In this document: positions 742 to 20,811 of the stretch, piece after piece | Layout of the letters: each line of letters starts with the position of its first letter | Position numbering within the stretch: the first letter of the stretch is position 1 | IMG/VR virus record: IMGVR_UViG_3300030380_001117 | Span: 1-26,250 of that record | Origin: a virus | Strand: one strand, 5' to 3' | DNA length: 26,250 bases | Notes under the pieces: model-generated | What the model was told of the DNA's origin: nothing | The model's database searches: none | The model's input: the letters and a program-made list of their open reading frames with translations, nothing else | Program-made: the position numbers and the translations under genes

Positions 742-1497
742 TTAATTGTATAAGTTATATAAAAATTGTTCTTTTTTAGTTAGTTTAGATACTTCTTTTT
801 TAGATAAAGAAACTTTTTTGTCAGAACTAAATTTATTTGTATTAATTGGTGAATCAGCTGGAGTTGCTGCTAATTCAGTTTTAAGTTTTTCATTCTCAGC
901 TTTTAAATTCTCTAGTTCTTCTTCTGCTGAAAATTCTACTACCTCAGTAGTTTTAGTTTTTACAGTTTTAGGACTGTCAGATGCTTCTTCAGTAGTTTCT
1001 TCAGTAGTTTCTTCTGTCATTTCTACTTCTTCTGAATCACCTTCACCTAATCTTTCTTTGATGTCTGCAATAGCATCCATTAAATTGTCTACCTTATCTT
1101 TCATTTCTTCATAAGATTTAGCCCAATCAGCTTTTTCAGCGTCTGTTTCAGGGAATGCAAATTCAACAGCTTCCATTTCGCTGTATTCTTCTTTTTCTTT
1201 TCTTGCATCAACATCTTCTTCAGTATCTTCTTCTTCAGTTTCAGATTCGATAACTTCGCCAACAACGCCTTCCTCTTCTACTCTGAAGCTAACGCCTGTA
1301 TCAGTTTTATAAGTGCCAATAGGTAATGGTATTGTCGTGCCATCTTCTGTCAAAACAGAAATATCCACACCTGATTCTAATTCTTCAGCAGTAGAAACGA
1401 AAATTGTACCATCTTCACTTTTTGCCTGCCAAGCTAATTTCACTTCTTCATCTTTGTTAAGACCAAGAGCTACTAATATTTGTTGTTTAATGTCCAT
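742..1497 (-). CDS. Acidic head scaffolding protein (putative)
   Basis: A 251-residue, very acidic protein. Residues about 75-125 and 150-175 are runs of Glu, Asp and Thr, with TEETTEETTEEA as a short internal repeat. A predicted coiled coil (EELENLKAENEKLKTEL) follows, and the C-terminus is short and basic (SDKKVSLSKKEVSKLTKKEQ). An acidic, helical body with a basic C-terminal tail directly before the capsid gene is the usual build of a phage scaffold: the tail binds the capsid protein inside the procapsid and the rest is removed on maturation. It starts at ATG 1497, about 50 bp after the protease gene, and this leader carries one of the four late-promoter-like motifs. Function is inferred from composition and position, not from a recognised domain. 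Confidence 0.65.
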   Translation of the reverse strand: MDIKQQILVALGLNKDEEVKLAWQAKSEDGTIFVSTAEELESGVDISVLTEDGTTIPLPIGTYKTDTGVSFRVEEEGVVGEVIESETEEEDTEEDVDARKEKEEYSEMEAVEFAFPETDAEKADWAKSYEEMKDKVDNLMDAIADIKERLGEGDSEEVEMTEETTEETTEEASDSPKTVKTKTTEVVEFSAEEELENLKAENEKLKTELAATPADSPINTNKFSSDKKVSLSKKEVSKLTKKEQFLYNLYN

Positions 1498-2472: not shown

Positions 2473-3018
2473 TTATTTTAATCCTTGTTGTTCAAATCTT
2501 TTTATTAAAGTTTTTGTTCTTTTAATTTGATTTTCAGTATCAGTAATTAACCCTTTTATTTCTTTAACTTGAGGTACACTATTAACTGAAACGCCTAATT
2601 CTTTTGCAGCTTTTTCAAAATTATTTAATTTTTCTTGAGCTACTTCTTGCATTTTTGGTTTTAATTTAATTAATTTAGAATATACATCTAAAGAAAAATT
2701 TCTATATTTTACTAATTCTTTTATATATTCATCTCCTTCATCTATTCTTGCATCAACATATTTTAAAGCACTTTTCATACCTTTAATTTGTTTTTCTAAT
2801 TCTTTTATAGAAGATAACTCTATTTTTTCAACTTTACTCAAGTTAAATTCTTTTAATTCTTTTTCGTATTCTTCATACGACTTCTTTCCTAGTGGTGTTG
2901 GTCTCATTTTACTATATTTTTTTGGATTAGACTTTTCACATTCTTCTTTAGTGGCGTATTTACATTCTCCTGTATTACCCCATTTATATTTTCCGTTTTC
3001 ACATTTTTTGCAAGGCAT
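2473..3018 (-). CDS. Cys-knuckle plus coiled-coil protein of the head module, function unknown
   Basis: A 181-residue protein. The first 35 residues have four cysteines (C3, C6, C19, C27) in MPCKKCENGKYKWGNTGEC, which looks like a small metal-binding knuckle; I recall similar segments in head-module proteins of flavobacterial phages. The rest is Lys/Glu-rich and predicted helical. The C-terminal part (KAAKELGVSVNSVPQVKEIK) can be aligned with the tail of the protease encoded just downstream, so the two may share a duplicated scaffolding module. It starts at ATG 3018, directly after a late-promoter-like motif, and ends 1 bp before the protease ATG. A scaffold or protease-partner role is plausible from position only. 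Confidence 0.6.
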   Translation of the reverse strand: MPCKKCENGKYKWGNTGECKYATKEECEKSNPKKYSKMRPTPLGKKSYEEYEKELKEFNLSKVEKIELSSIKELEKQIKGMKSALKYVDARIDEGDEYIKELVKYRNFSLDVYSKLIKLKPKMQEVAQEKLNNFEKAAKELGVSVNSVPQVKEIKGLITDTENQIKRTKTLIKRFEQQGLK

Positions 3019-3021
3019 ATT

Positions 3022-3056
3022 ATATAATAGATTAAATTAATATTTATTTGATTTTT
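3022..3056 (-). promoter_or_regulatory. Late-promoter-like motif, copy 3 (coiled-coil/protease genes)
   Basis: On the minus strand AAAAATCAAATAAATA (3041-3056) is followed by nine bases and TCTATTATAT (3022-3031). The motif overlaps the last codon of the tape-measure gene and ends 3 bases before the ATG at 3018. If it is a promoter, the transcript would be leaderless or nearly so. The 16-mer is identical to the one at 1530-1545. Confidence 0.5.
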
Positions 3057-11897: not shown

Positions 11898-12659
11898 GTT
11901 TTACTTTATTTTGTGTACTTAAATCTGTTTCATAACTTAACCAAGTTAGACATTCTAACAAGTTAAGATTTGTTATCCTTTCTAAATTTACTATCTCTCC
12001 ATTTGTCAATCTATACATCACTCCGAACCAACCCCACTTTTCTGCAAAAGATTCTGAGGCAATTGCTTCTCCATTTCCTTCAGCCGATGGGTCAAAAATG
12101 ATGGCAAAGTCATTAGCAATTCTTTCGCGAAACTGTAAAAAAAAACCAGTGCATTTTGCACTTGCTCTGCTGACATCTTCTTCATCTCCTCTGCCCTTAT
12201 ACTTATATTTCCATCATAAGCTTCAATAGTATAAATATTATTTTTCTTTTCAACTATTGGTCTGTATAAAACAGCACATAATTCAGGTAAGTGGTTTTGA
12301 ATATCATTCTTAATGAATGTCTCTATATCTGCATACTCACCAAGAGTAATGGAATCCAAATCAGGATGAAAACCATACTCCTTACCCTCTACCTCTATAA
12401 TTCTCCTTAGAGAACTATCTTGCTTATGTTGTAGCTCACTTATCTTTCCCAAGATTGTAGCTATATCTTTAATCTCTAGCTTATCAATTAGCTTTTTAGG
12501 AATATCAGATAATGCTGCTATCGTTTCCTTTGCTTCCTTGCTCTTGTCAAGTTTGTGAAACTTAACTAACTTTAACCATGTTTCCAGGTTAACCTCACTC
12601 CAGCTACTAATTAATTTAAACTCTTTAGTCTTTCCTCCCTCCTTAATTTTTACCTTCAT
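11881..12659 (-). CDS. Tail assembly chaperone, long form made by -1 frameshift (gpGT-like, 259 residues)
   Basis: Residues 1-174 are read in the frame of the 213-residue protein. After GTT TTT TTT (12138-12146) a -1 slip would continue as TTA CAG TTT CGC and stay open for 85 codons to TAA 11881-11883. The extension begins LQFRERIANDFAIIFDPSAE and contains ESFAEKWGWFGVMYRLTNGE, then NLNLLECLTWLSYETD. The F.EKWGW block followed by a helical region resembles the second ('T') part of tail chaperones in related phages, and this frame has no ATG until 12018. In lambda the G and GT proteins bind the tape measure during tail assembly. If the slip did not happen, an ATG at 12018 (overlapping the stop as TGATG) could give only the last 45 residues. 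Confidence 0.7.
12018..12659 (-). CDS. Tail assembly chaperone, short form (gpG-like, 213 residues)
   Basis: Begins MKVKIKEGGKTKEFKLISSW and contains LETWLKLVKFHKLDKSKEAK, LSDIPKKLIDKLEIKDIATI, YGFHPDLDSITLGEYADIET, CAVLYRPIVEKKNNIYTIEA and SAEQVQNALVFFYSFAKELL. I recognise this as a conserved family next to tail genes in flavobacterial phages. It is about the length expected of a gpG-type chaperone and is followed by an overlapping ORF in the -1 frame, as in lambda and many siphoviruses. It starts directly after a late-promoter-like motif, downstream of TerL. The short form would be the main product and the frameshifted form the minor one; the ratio cannot be read from sequence. Confidence 0.7.
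   Translation of the reverse strand: MKVKIKEGGKTKEFKLISSWSEVNLETWLKLVKFHKLDKSKEAKETIAALSDIPKKLIDKLEIKDIATILGKISELQHKQDSSLRRIIEVEGKEYGFHPDLDSITLGEYADIETFIKNDIQNHLPELCAVLYRPIVEKKNNIYTIEAYDGNISIRAEEMKKMSAEQVQNALVFFYSFAKELLMTLPSFLTHRLKEMEKQLPQNLLQKSGVGSE
12138..12144 (-). promoter_or_regulatory. Slippery heptamer T TTT TTT for -1 frameshift
   Basis: The minus strand has a run of nine T at 12137-12145, read in frame as GTT TTT TTT TAC. Positions 12144-12138 form a perfect X XXY YYZ heptamer with both codons UUU (Phe), so both tRNAs can re-pair after a -1 slip. The -1 frame downstream is open and encodes a plausible tail-chaperone extension. A homopolymer indel in the assembly would look the same and is the main alternative. 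Confidence 0.65.
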
Positions 12660-12664
12660 ATATA

Positions 12665-12693
12665 ATATAATAGAAATTGTTGTTATTTAGTTT
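12665..12693 (-). promoter_or_regulatory. Late-promoter-like motif, copy 2 (tail operon)
   Basis: On the minus strand AAACTAAATA (12684-12693, 8 of 10 matches to CAAATAAATA), nine bases, then TCTATTATAT (12665-12674), ending 5 bases before the tail chaperone ATG. This is the weakest of the four copies in the upstream box but keeps the exact spacing. It lies in the 122-bp gap after terL. Confidence 0.45.
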
Positions 12694-12746: not shown

Positions 12747-12783
12747 AAAAGGGGGGTTAGTCACTTAGGCTGCCCTCTTTTTT
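12747..12783 (-). terminator. Possible terminator after terL
   Basis: Just past the TerL stop the minus strand reads AAAAAGAGGG, about 16 bases, then CCCCCCTTTT. The flanking A- and T-tracts and the G/C runs can pair with one mismatch, giving a stem of about nine pairs followed by U residues. It is the only GC-rich spot in the 122-bp gap before the tail operon. The large loop and the mismatch make it weak; partial termination or an RNA stability element is equally possible. Confidence 0.3.
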
Positions 12784-13984
12784 ATTGTACAAAATATCTG
12801 CCTGCATTAGGATTATCTAAGTGATATATAACATTATATCTAACACCATCTATTGCATGATTAAAAGAATCATGGTATAGTTTTGACCCCTTGTCTGCGT
12901 ATACATAATTGTTTAATTCTTTAGCTATATTAGTAGATTCAGGAGTTACAATTAGCTCATAGTCCTGCATTCTAGTTATTCCGCTTTCAATAGTTCCTTT
13001 TTTTACTGGTCTTATGTTTACTCCTAAGTGCTTCAGGTCTGCTATCAGTCTAGGTTCTGCTGAATCAGCTATAATTAACTTGTTACCTACTTTCTCTAAT
13101 ACTATTTGAGCTAACTCCTGTGACTTCATTCCGTTTTTATAGATATGTTCTTTTAAATATATCTTCTGTTTCTTTTTATCAATAGCCACCTCTGTTAAAC
13201 TATCAGGATCAACACTAAATCCAAAGTCCATTCCACAAGATGTTTGCAGACCATCAGGATTAAATTCACCAATACTCCAATTCTCAAACACCACACCTTC
13301 TGCTTTATCTAACCATCCACCCATTATTTTGTGCTGATACTTCTTAAAATTCTTGTGCTGTATAGTTTTAATACGCTCTAAGAAGCTCTCTGAGAGGTTT
13401 TCTCTATTGTCTAGGTATGTACTGTGTATATAGCATACATTGTCTTTAACGCCATTAAAACCAGCTTCTACGCCTTTGTCTTGAAAGAATCTTTTGTATA
13501 TCCAATGTTCTTTAGTTACAGGATTTAATATAAGTATGATTCTGTTTTGTATTTCTTTTTCTCTAATACTTAAATCAATAGTGTCAAATATATCTTCATC
13601 AATTAATTCTTCAGCTTCATCCAACACCCAGTTAGATACTCCTGTTAAAGATTTAAGACTAGCTGTTTGGTTTCCTGCTGATGTCTTTATACCTCTAAAC
13701 AGTATGTCGCTTTTGTTTTTTAAGTTTACTACTTCTGCTTTGTTTACGCTAAATATATTATCATACCCTAATAGTCCTATCTTTTCTAAGAACTCAGGAA
13801 TGATTGACAGGTGTGCTGAGGTCATAGTGTATCTCGTAAAGAGTACTCTAATCCCTCTAGTCATAGTTAATAATGTAAGGAATACTGTTACCGCAAAAGA
13901 TTTTCCTGATCCTCTACCACCTGTTATTATAAAATACCTGGCATTAGAATCAAATAGTGGATTATATTTCTTACTCAGTTTCAG
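12782..13984 (-). CDS. terL: Terminase large subunit, non-ATG (CTG) start
   Basis: The packaging motor ATPase and nuclease. The first ATG in frame (13864) would omit the Walker A motif GGRGSGKS, which lies upstream. The frame is closed by TAG just before ACA CTG AAA CTG AGT AAG, so the start is most likely CTG 13982-13984, giving MKLSKKYNPLFDSNARYFII and a 400-residue protein. Walker A is then at 22-29 and Walker B (NWVLDEAEEL) has D122-E123. Nuclease motifs follow: SCGMDFGFSVDPDSL, LIIADSAEPRLIADLKHLG and NHAIDGVRYNV. The start lies inside the 3' end of terS (14-base overlap, +1 relative frame), so translation is probably coupled. No ATG or GTG is available in that stretch. Length and motifs fit a complete TerL. 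Confidence 0.92.
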   Translation of the reverse strand: MKLSKKYNPLFDSNARYFIITGGRGSGKSFAVTVFLTLLTMTRGIRVLFTRYTMTSAHLSIIPEFLEKIGLLGYDNIFSVNKAEVVNLKNKSDILFRGIKTSAGNQTASLKSLTGVSNWVLDEAEELIDEDIFDTIDLSIREKEIQNRIILILNPVTKEHWIYKRFFQDKGVEAGFNGVKDNVCYIHSTYLDNRENLSESFLERIKTIQHKNFKKYQHKIMGGWLDKAEGVVFENWSIGEFNPDGLQTSCGMDFGFSVDPDSLTEVAIDKKKQKIYLKEHIYKNGMKSQELAQIVLEKVGNKLIIADSAEPRLIADLKHLGVNIRPVKKGTIESGITRMQDYELIVTPESTNIAKELNNYVYADKGSKLYHDSFNHAIDGVRYNVIYHLDNPNAGRYFVQ

Positions 13985-14231
13985 TGTCTACAAATGTTAT
14001 TACAGGCATATTCAATGTCTCCTCGTTTGAAGTCACATCAACCTTTTGCTGTGGCTTACCATAGAAGTATTCAAAGAATAATTTAACCGCCCATTGTTCT
14101 TTTTTCTCTAAACCTTTTTGCAATGACTCTAATGCTAGTGTGTTCATTGGTGTTAGGTTCTCTATTAGCTTTTGTTCTTCAGCTTTTGCCTTTCGACCTG
14201 CTCCTTCTCTTTTTCCTCCGTGTGTACTCAT
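13971..14231 (-). CDS. terS: Terminase small subunit (putative)
   Basis: An 86-residue protein starting MSTHGGKREGAGRKAKAEEQ. The GGKREGAGRK block is typical of small DNA-binding proteins and TerS N-termini of Bacteroidota phages. A helical body (NTLALESLQKGLEKKEQWAV KLFFEYFYGKP) follows and may drive oligomerisation. TerS recognises the phage DNA and starts packaging with TerL. It lies directly upstream of and overlaps terL. Its leader of 43 bp carries a late-promoter-like motif, consistent with being the first gene of a late transcript. It is short for the family, so a DNA-binding accessory is the alternative. Confidence 0.75.
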   Translation of the reverse strand: MSTHGGKREGAGRKAKAEEQKLIENLTPMNTLALESLQKGLEKKEQWAVKLFFEYFYGKPQQKVDVTSNEETLNMPVITFVDTETE

Positions 14232-14262
14232 TTTGAAATAATTTGATTAATCAAGTTGTATT

Positions 14263-14291
14263 ATATAATAGAAATCACTTGAATTCATTTG
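14263..14291 (-). promoter_or_regulatory. Late-promoter-like motif, copy 1 (terS-terL)
   Basis: On the minus strand CAAATGAATT (14282-14291, 8 of 10 matches to CAAATAAATA), nine bases, then TCTATTATAT (14263-14272). The upstream box lies within the last codons of ninB, so coding constraint did not remove it. The motif ends 31 bases before the terS ATG. It marks the border between the early operon and the packaging genes. Confidence 0.5.
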
Positions 14292-15090: not shown

Positions 15091-15348
15091 TTAAAAGTCT
15101 TCGTTTATTCCTCTTTCTCCAAGCAGTTTCTCTTTAGCACCATCCCAAAGATAATCACCTCTTTTCTTTTTACTTAATGATTCTTCTGTTCTTTTTAATT
15201 GAGGGAATCCTTCTACTGGTTCTGTTTTCATATATAAACCACAAGGGCATTCTGATCCTTTAGTTACCCATTCATTATCACGCAAAACAATTATTTGCTT
15301 TCTTATCTCTTTTTCGTGTTCACCACATTTGCATTTATATAGTGCCAT
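15091..15348 (-). CDS. Small zinc-ribbon-like protein
   Basis: An 85-residue protein with two CxC pairs, C6/C8 (YKCKCGEH) and C34/C36 (ECPCGLYM), about 26 residues apart, which is a plausible zinc ribbon. The C-terminal half is charged (RTEESLSKKKRGDYLWDGAK). The ATG overlaps the stop of the DUF3310 gene as TAATG. Similar small Cys-rich proteins are frequent in phage early regions, but I cannot assign a function. Confidence 0.5.
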   Translation of the reverse strand: MALYKCKCGEHEKEIRKQIIVLRDNEWVTKGSECPCGLYMKTEPVEGFPQLKRTEESLSKKKRGDYLWDGAKEKLLGERGINEDF

Positions 15349-16199: not shown

Positions 16200-16314
16200 G
16201 AGACTTGTTTCTAGGTGCTACTTTTTCAGGGTAATCAAATCCAAACATCATAACAAATGAATGTTTTTTTTTGGGATCATACATCTTAGCTCTACTCTTT
16301 GTTTTAATTTTCAT
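16192..16314 (-). CDS. 40-residue basic ORF between the sigma-like and zinc-binding genes
   Basis: ATG 16312-16314 to TAG 16192-16194. The product begins MKIKTKSRAKMYDPKKKHSF and ends with YPEKVAPRNKSHE. It fills the 104-bp gap between two genes, overlapping the sigma-like gene by 11 bases and the zinc-protein gene by 8, which is the tight packing seen across the operon. Basic N-terminal half, no membrane span. No family recognised; short length keeps confidence moderate. Confidence 0.45.
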   Translation of the reverse strand: MKIKTKSRAKMYDPKKKHSFVMMFGFDYPEKVAPRNKSHE

Positions 16315-16879
16315 TTAATTCTTTTCTTAATAATGTTCTTACTTTATCTATTGTTGTAAATAAACTATTTCTACTTATCTTAGTTTTTGCAGCAAGACTA
16401 TCTAATGTATTGCCTTCATAATAATAGAGCTTAAATAATTCCCTATCATACCAGTAAATATCATCTAAAGCTTGATCAATTTTCTCTAGCTTTTTCCATT
16501 GTTTAGCTACTTCTTTTTCCGCAATATTAGATATATGTTTATTATTAGCAATGTTATGTGCCACATCATCATTACTAAAAGTTGTGCTGCAATTGTAACT
16601 AAAGCTGTCAATATGTGTGTAATACTTTTCATACTTATAATAAAAATTACTTCTTGTACTTGTTAATGCTCTTCTTAATGCAACTGCTCCATATCTTGTT
16701 ATTCCATCTATTCCATCTTTATCATATATTGCTTTCAGGGTAGCAGGATTCATTTGTAAAAAATATAGCATTAACTCTTGTACAGCTTCATGTATTTTGT
16801 TTTCATCAGTTGTAATACCATAAGCCATTGTTCTAAATTTATCTGTTAGTTTTGATATTTCCTGATAAATCTTATTCAT
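16304..16879 (-). CDS. Sigma-factor-like protein (candidate late regulator)
   Basis: A 191-residue protein. Residues about 25-45 (ENKIHEAVQELMLYFLQMNP) resemble the helix of sigma region 2. The C-terminal part, YWYDRELFKLYYYEGNTLDS followed by LAAKTKISRNSLFTTIDKVR (about 142-181), has the order of sigma region 4: a helix ending in 'Y.eG.tl..LA..t.is...l......a...L'. Two regions separated by a variable linker in under 200 residues is the size of an ECF-type sigma or of the sigma-like proteins of Bacteroidota phages. Being in the early operon and preceding four copies of a novel late motif, it is the obvious candidate to read that motif. It could instead be a HTH regulator. It overlaps the upstream 118-residue gene by 8 bases. 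Confidence 0.6.
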   Translation of the reverse strand: MNKIYQEISKLTDKFRTMAYGITTDENKIHEAVQELMLYFLQMNPATLKAIYDKDGIDGITRYGAVALRRALTSTRSNFYYKYEKYYTHIDSFSYNCSTTFSNDDVAHNIANNKHISNIAEKEVAKQWKKLEKIDQALDDIYWYDRELFKLYYYEGNTLDSLAAKTKISRNSLFTTIDKVRTLLRKELNEN

Positions 16880-20779: not shown

Positions 20780-20811
20780 CAAAAGTAATAAAAATAAAAG
20801 ATATTCACAAA
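20780..20811 (-). promoter_or_regulatory. Early promoter, Bacteroidota primary-sigma type
   Basis: On the minus strand TTTG (20808-20811), 20 bases, TACTTTTG (20780-20787). This fits the Bacteroidota vegetative consensus (TTTG near -33, TAnnTTTG near -7, spacing 17-23). The start of transcription would be about 20774, leaving a leader of about 22 A-rich bases before ATG 20752. It is the only such pair I found in a non-coding stretch on the coding strand. The -33 box lies in the first DnaA-box-like repeat. Confidence 0.7.

Follow-up and report, generated by a model that had tools for sequence, protein, structure and literature searches.

A strictly spaced two-box motif as the likely late promoter of a phage-encoded ECF-like sigma factor

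Introduction

To our knowledge, promoters have been mapped for only a handful of phage-encoded sigma factors; we found none from Bacteroidota phages in the open library. The closest described systems come from phages of enteric bacteria. In Salmonella phage 7-11, the sigma factor SaPh711_gp47 uses eight late promoters, GTAAtg-(16)-aCTA, with transcription starting 6-9 bp from the element, and in E. coli phage phiEco32 the sigma factor gp36 uses middle and late promoters with a near-invariant tAATGTAtA (PMC8948821). The two proteins, gp36 and gp47, are 15% identical, and their motifs differ as the sigmas do (PMC8948821). Bacterial ECF holoenzymes likewise need strict promoter elements separated by a rigid spacer (PMC6411747).

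We analyzed a window of 26,250 nucleotides that forms part of a 27,840-bp IMG/VR record (IMGVR_UViG_3300030380_001117), which contains runs of N and may be incomplete; no terminal repeat was seen in the 27,840 bp. The original prediction from this window was that a motif found before four late blocks is a phage-specific promoter read by a sigma-like protein encoded in the same genome. That proposal is supported by strand bias, conservation and a joint switch of sigma and motif, and is the best-supported reading of the locus. We consider it quite likely that the phage encodes an ECF-like sigma factor whose late promoters are formed by the motif, and that this sigma would act through the host core polymerase and yield leaderless or near-leaderless late mRNAs.

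As in the known phage sigma systems, the element stands before several late genes on the coding strand, and a sigma-like gene lies in the early operon. The likeness to 7-11 is drawn from promoter layout, namely a phage sigma, a bipartite late promoter, and a -35-like AA and a -10 CTA at comparable places, although both the sequence and the host phylum are different; by this analogy, the present system would work like that of 7-11. With phiEco32 it shares a near-invariant short -10 box, a motif that switches with the sigma in divergent relatives and, probably, a sigma made before the late genes; however, the phiEco32 promoters have a single element with no -35 box, whereas the present phage keeps both boxes strictly. 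A term search of the 7-11 paper (PMC8948821) for "leaderless" found nothing.

Results

Five copies of the motif lie just upstream of start codons

A search of the window for CAAATAAATA-N9-TCTATTATAT, allowing up to three mismatches, yielded exactly four matches, all on the minus strand, where almost every gene is encoded. Dinucleotide shuffles of the window gave a mean of 0.06 two-box matches and never reached four, and the core TCTATTATAT is exact in all four copies and absent elsewhere in the window. The first copy (14263-14291; core 14263-14272, upstream box 14282-14291; two mismatches) precedes the first late gene, TerS (13971-14231, minus strand), which we named from its position before TerL and its sequence (it has a weak match to phrog_38011, of unknown function). 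The second (12665-12693; core 12665-12674, upstream box 12684-12693; two mismatches) precedes a gene (12018-12659, minus strand) considered tail assembly-type from its position (phrog_32199, also of unknown function). The remaining two copies have no mismatches: one (3022-3050; core 3022-3031, upstream box 3041-3050) serves the gene for a Cys-rich/coiled-coil protein (2473-3018, minus strand) and the protease, and the other (1511-1539; core 1511-1520, upstream box 1530-1539) serves a gene for an acidic protein (742-1497, minus strand) that is scaffold-like in its position before the capsid region. In both of these the AAAAAT extension is genuine (3022-3056 and 1511-1545). Thus, four copies lie on the minus strand where they had been placed, with upstream-box matches of 8, 8, 10 and 10, a nine-base spacer throughout, and distances of 5 and 3 bases to the ATG in the second and third copies, respectively, all as initially described.

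The claim that the window holds no further copy was also correct, but the total is at least five once the whole record is counted, since a scan extended to the complete record and to related phages, as had been proposed, revealed an extra copy in the remainder of the record (26876-26904; core 26876-26885). This fifth copy, CAAATAAAAA-N9-TCTATTATAT-TATAT-ATG, ends 5 bases ahead of the ATG of a structural gene (26388-26870) and had no part in defining the motif, and is thus out-of-sample. The core ends 13 nt (1511), 3 nt (3022), 5 nt (12665), 31 nt (14263) and 5 nt (fifth copy) ahead of the start codon, such that each of the five is followed within 3-31 nt by a start codon on its own strand (P ~1e-8 under random placement, a rough value in which the choice of motif is unpenalised).

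Two local features were noted at these sites. A terminator-like hairpin of 9 bp with a T-run lies just upstream of the fifth copy (record 26918-26938; L005:1543-1563); terminators ahead of promoters are not general, as none was seen in eight site classes of the relatives. At TerS, the -35-like box (14282-14291, minus strand) falls inside the last codons of a NinB-like gene, where CCAAATGAATTCAAG encodes PNEFK, and this sequence is shared by protein and promoter.

The two boxes have an ECF-type layout

Across related loci, the upstream box reads AA(A/C)TRAA(T/A) and starts 18 bases ahead of the core in 348 of 381 cores, giving an overall layout, AA(A/C)-N16-CTATTATAT, that is ECF-type. Specifically, ECF-type promoters combine an AA(C)-type -35 and a short -10 with a rigid 16-18 bp distance, and the motif shows AA(A/C)-N16-CTA. 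The description of two boxes and a spacer therefore stood, but it had missed this longer layout. Stringent -35 and -10 elements, a rigid spacer, an AA(Y)-type -35 and a short -10 core are all common to the motif and to bacterial ECF promoters; in contrast to the latter, the phage -35 is A-rich without GG, and the -10 is extended to 10-11 nearly invariant bases.

We also compared the motif with the TAnnTTTG element of the flavobacterial primary sigma (PMC9723704, PMC6847099). In both, TA opens the -7/-10 box, and the early operon uses the flavobacterial form; however, the late motif is without TTTG, which is missing in all five copies (0/5), in line with the earlier statement that none fits TAnnTTTG.

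The motif is conserved on the gene strand of related loci

To assess conservation, we used 154 loci (1.6 Mb) fetched by searches with the sigma-like protein and TerL, in which the motif itself was unused. Many of these loci are fragments and they are related by descent, so the counts that follow are not independent events. The core TCTATTATAT occurred 260 times on the gene strand of the 154 loci, compared to an average of 8 for permuted 10-mers. An iterated weight matrix on these motif-independent relatives recovered 212 unique sites, of which 211 are on the gene strand; the core is exact in 205. When upstream regions were selected by gene, the exact core was present in 79 of 80 distinct TerS regions and 104 of 105 distinct tail-gene regions. 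For the two-box form, the gene strand gave 355 matches and the opposite strand gave none. Matches inside genes, which would have counted against a promoter, were essentially lacking given this split, and the TerS copy overlaps only the NinB-like end. All 25 near-full records carry 2-6 copies each, with none for a reversed-pattern control. Among 99 copies in full records, a single one lies on the opposite strand (G014, the record of L079, 24421-24448, minus strand), about 200 bp from a sense copy; it is possibly an antisense promoter or a chance match.

The motif is also stable where the sigma is not. It is constant in the main clade though the sigma falls to ~55-60% identity, and a diverged group (sigma ~57% identical) has 108 two-box matches on the gene strand and none on the other. 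The spacer is free to vary (104 distinct sequences) while the offset of the upstream box is fixed, which argues for selection and not recent copying. That the motif arises by chance or composition might be suggested by a genome of ~68% A+T in which single-box near-matches are common, but shuffles never reached the observed count, the strands split 355 to 0, and orthologous sites are conserved with variable spacers; the relatives already refute this explanation, and we regard its probability as vanishingly small.

The motif was also specific. Of 115 loci retrieved initially with nothing but the motif, 114 proved to be clade members by protein homology. The exception, L178 (IMGVR_UViG_3300024359_000008, 72.7 kb), is the sole motif-bearing locus without homologues of the phage's proteins, and its motif is probably there by chance.

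Motif sites precede presumed late genes, and the early operon has a host-type promoter

TerS, the tail gene (12018-12659), the scaffold-like gene and the gene at 26388-26870 each have a site in front of them, as does either the Cys-rich/coiled-coil gene or the protease. Many relatives have a further site before a ParB/methylase-type gene (named by eye from its sequence) that lies between sigma and TerS, and in one relative a homologue of the small gene at 15091-15348, likewise between sigma and TerS, is preceded by a site. No sites were found before the early replication operon. Motif sites before early genes, which would have spoken against this reading, were thus limited to, at most, the single site at the 15091-15348 homologue. 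Judging by the functions of the genes served, the motif would drive late genes.

By comparison, the early operon, which begins after the largest intergenic gap and ends in the sigma gene, is preceded by a host-type promoter, TTG-N20-TACTTTTG (20780-20810, minus strand). Host-type TTG/TAnnTTTG promoters in the relatives peak 3.5-5.5 kb upstream of the sigma gene, at densities of up to 0.28-0.34 per 500 bp compared to ~0.02 elsewhere. Thus, the early genes look as if they are driven by the host sigma and the late genes by the motif.

The putative reader is an ECF-like sigma protein

We propose as the reader of the motif the 191-aa product of the last early gene (16304-16879, minus strand), which was present in 12 of 12 records tested (fetched by TerL). 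This protein matches phrog_36 (transcription regulation) with E 2.5e-4, and its library matches lie mostly in the C-terminal HTH. Pfam Sigma70_r4_2 and r4 match 28 and 26 of 37 homologues, respectively, all below threshold, with a best region 4 E of 7e-4; the window protein itself scores 13.9 bits for Sigma70_r4 (cut-off 24.1) and 12.4 bits for r4_2 (cut-off 25.7), below the curated family cut-off. A profile search of solved-structure sequences gave no credible match, and tblastn of the protein against 50,697 phage records gave zero matches, which indicates that no isolate among those records has a detectable homologue. No anti-sigma gene was identified beside the sigma-like gene.

Two AlphaFold2 models (mean pLDDT 65 and 71) show helical N- and C-terminal domains joined by a poorly predicted linker (85-120). 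The best solved structures in Foldseek were sigma factors, with Mtb SigL first (E 7.8e-4), followed by AlgU, SigH, sigmaE and SigW, although only one match had E below 0.001 and whole-chain TM-scores were low. In the first model, the C-terminal part can be overlaid on region 4 of sigmaE in its complex with -35 DNA (TM 0.78 on target). Thus, the predicted models show, at moderate confidence, the two-domain sigma2-sigma4 fold of bacterial ECF sigmas such as Mtb SigH, SigL and E. coli sigmaE (PMC6411747; PDB 6dv9, 2h27). On these models we call the protein ECF-like and do not file it as an ECF member, because it failed the curated sequence cut-off.

We considered that the phage might encode a DNA-binding activator, not a sigma, that binds AA(A/C)TRAAT and leaves the TATTATAT box to be opened by the host primary sigma, in the manner of MotA/AsiA- or Mor-type systems. 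The core does contain TATTAT, host-like promoters tolerate TA-rich -7 boxes, and by sequence the sigma-like protein might be an HTH regulator with region 4 only. However, the TTTG of TAnnTTTG is missing from the core, which, in contrast to host promoters, hardly varies (205/212); ECF holoenzymes require just such a rigid arrangement of two boxes (PMC6411747); and the model, with its N- and C-terminal helical domains, matches whole ECF sigmas. We therefore think an activator unlikely.

A divergent relative pairs another sigma with another motif

Among isolates, Nonlabens phage P12024S has the closest TerL (64% identical); its gp33 matches Pfam Sigma70_r2 above the cut-off and is encoded at the same gene position, before TerS-TerL. 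The TCTATTATAT motif is absent from P12024S. The P12024S genome (NC_018271.1) has TAAAAC-N17-CGTTAATATA at seven places (145, 2997, 5378, 21247, 23927, 25167 and 26768), all on the late-gene strand and adjoining late genes (shuffle mean 0.26), and contigs with gp33 homologues (48-99% identity) retain it. This layout, AAAAC-N17-CGT, is also ECF-type. When CTATTATATAATATG and CGTTAATATAATATG are aligned at C, 12 of 15 bases are common and the ATG has the same position. Cross-scans were exclusive (355 vs 0 for the main motif; 0 vs 22 for the P12024S-type motif). Thus, the P12024S/L gp33 system (Inhavirus, NC_018271) shares a sigma-type gene before the terminase, a two-box motif at late genes and an ATG straight after the box, but differs in its box (CGTTAATATA), in an AAC-to-C spacer one base longer, and in a sigma undetectable by BLAST; hhalign links the two sigma groups weakly, through 50 columns of the N-terminal part (E 8.5e-4, probability 24%).

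The motif thus changes with the sigma, in one independent switch only; since the motif is constant within the main clade despite sigma divergence, the co-variation comes from one deep comparison. We know of no earlier report of the P12024S motif, having searched the open-access library. A blind scan for k-mers upstream of genes, aimed at Riemerella CRP6 and Polaribacter P12002S, was too weak, as it missed even the known motif.

This comparison also bears on whether the phage exploits a host ECF sigma, with its own sigma-like protein having another role. Flavobacterial hosts encode several ECF sigmas (seven in F. psychrophilum, with a CGT-type -10 attributed; PMC9723704), and the P12024S box is of the CGT type. 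Against this, the phage's own sigma ends the early operon in all records tested, and in P12024S relatives a change of motif type goes with a change of phage sigma type. We consider the use of a host ECF sigma decidedly improbable.

Start sites are predicted at or next to the start codon

A purine (A/G) occupies position 13, with the T of TCTATTATAT as 0 (i.e., core+4), in 94-100% of sites, and a T just before it in about 80% or more. At sites with the ATG at least 9 nt away, core+4 is still A (0.89) or G (0.10), and thus the purine is not a by-product of the ATG. At 131 of 228 sites (~57%), 3 or 5 nt separate the core from the ATG; the core+4 base is the A of the ATG in the 3-nt class and leaves a leader of 2 nt in the 5-nt class. 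Reading frames from the motif-adjacent ATG appear genuine, as third codon positions are the most variable from codon 2 on. With starts at the core+4 purine, the 3022 copy would begin transcription at 3018, the A of the ATG (leaderless), the tail-gene copy at 12661 (leader ~2 nt), the scaffold copy at 1507 (~10 nt), and the TerS copy at 14259, with its start codon at 14231 (~28 nt), all on the minus strand. With such short distances to the ATG at most sites, late mRNAs are predicted to be mostly leaderless or nearly so; the earlier remark on leaderless transcripts is strengthened by these predicted starts. Against this reading, a -10 in precisely the position of the host -7 element, 4-5 nt ahead of the start, would place the start 1-2 nt within the ATG for the 3-nt class.

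The same proximity raised the alternative, already mentioned in the original prediction, that the motif acts on RNA as an A/U-rich initiation signal just upstream of the AUG. Shine-Dalgarno sequences are lacking in Bacteroidota, and the frequency of the 3- and 5-nt distances would suit such a signal. Flavobacteria also use A-rich Kozak-like contexts (PMC6847099). However, the TerS and scaffold copies hold the same motif 13-35 nt from the ATG, the motif is present at only ~5 genes per genome, the upstream box sits ~30 nt from the ATG at fixed spacing, and P12024S shows another sequence in the same layout. We consider an RNA signal very improbable.

Discussion

The reading that we prefer, late promoters of an ECF-like phage sigma, draws from sequence the motif, its geometry, strand, conservation and gene context, the host-type early promoter and the sigma-like fold. 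We infer that the sigma-like protein reads the motif, as well as the start point and late timing. In the mechanism we envisage, host RNA polymerase would transcribe the early operon from the host-type promoter near 20780, and the last part of that operon would yield the small ECF-like sigma (16304-16879) that binds the host core polymerase. Region 4 of the sigma would read AA(A/C)TRAAT as the -35 and region 2 would read TCTATTATAT(A) as the -10, with the boxes held at a fixed 16-bp AA(A/C)-to-C distance, and transcription would begin 4 nt past the core, where the purine is conserved. The terminase, tail, protease, scaffold/capsid and portal/lysis blocks would be driven by at least five promoters of this kind.

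A stronger proposal is that the start site of a phage ECF-like sigma promoter is fused to the start codon (...TATATAATATG), both here and separately in Nonlabens phages, such that most of the late transcriptome is leaderless; we give this about an even chance. If true, virion mRNAs would be leaderless in hosts that hardly use such mRNAs, and promoter choice by a sigma would be coupled to a distinct translation initiation. Leaderless mRNAs make up only 5.5% in F. psychrophilum (PMC9723704), and in F. johnsoniae 87% of mRNAs have leaders >10 nt (PMC6847099); leaderless late mRNAs are thus predicted in flavobacteria, where they are rare.

New here are the clade with its probable Bacteroidota host, the sequence and its strictness over hundreds of contigs, and the apparent fusion of promoter and start codon; no prior description of the motif was found in open papers. 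A sigma and its promoter could be paired from sequence alone over hundreds of contigs, and the second, divergent pair in an isolated phage, P12024S, makes the model testable in culture. Given its specificity (114/115 loci), the motif can serve to identify members of this marine clade and to mark their late transcription units.

The motif-bearing phages are a widespread marine group, probably with flavobacterial hosts, as judged from the P12024S TerL and the TAnnTTTG early promoters. Hosts suggested by two matches (L276, Pseudooceanicola; L277, Euryarchaeota) were not trusted, as both lie in viral-looking contigs of those MAGs and their placement is most likely due to binning errors.

We also note an unusual start of TerL (12782-13864, minus strand; Terminase_3, E 6.8e-28). 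Its true N terminus, with Walker A (KYNPLFDSNARYFIITGGRGSGKS), reaches upstream to ~13985 in the same frame (13865-13985, minus strand), and this extension has no ATG, GTG or TTG start before the in-frame stop. Four relatives share the startless extension, and CTG is the second codon after the stop. Thus, TerL translation may involve either a CTG start or a TerS-TerL frameshift.
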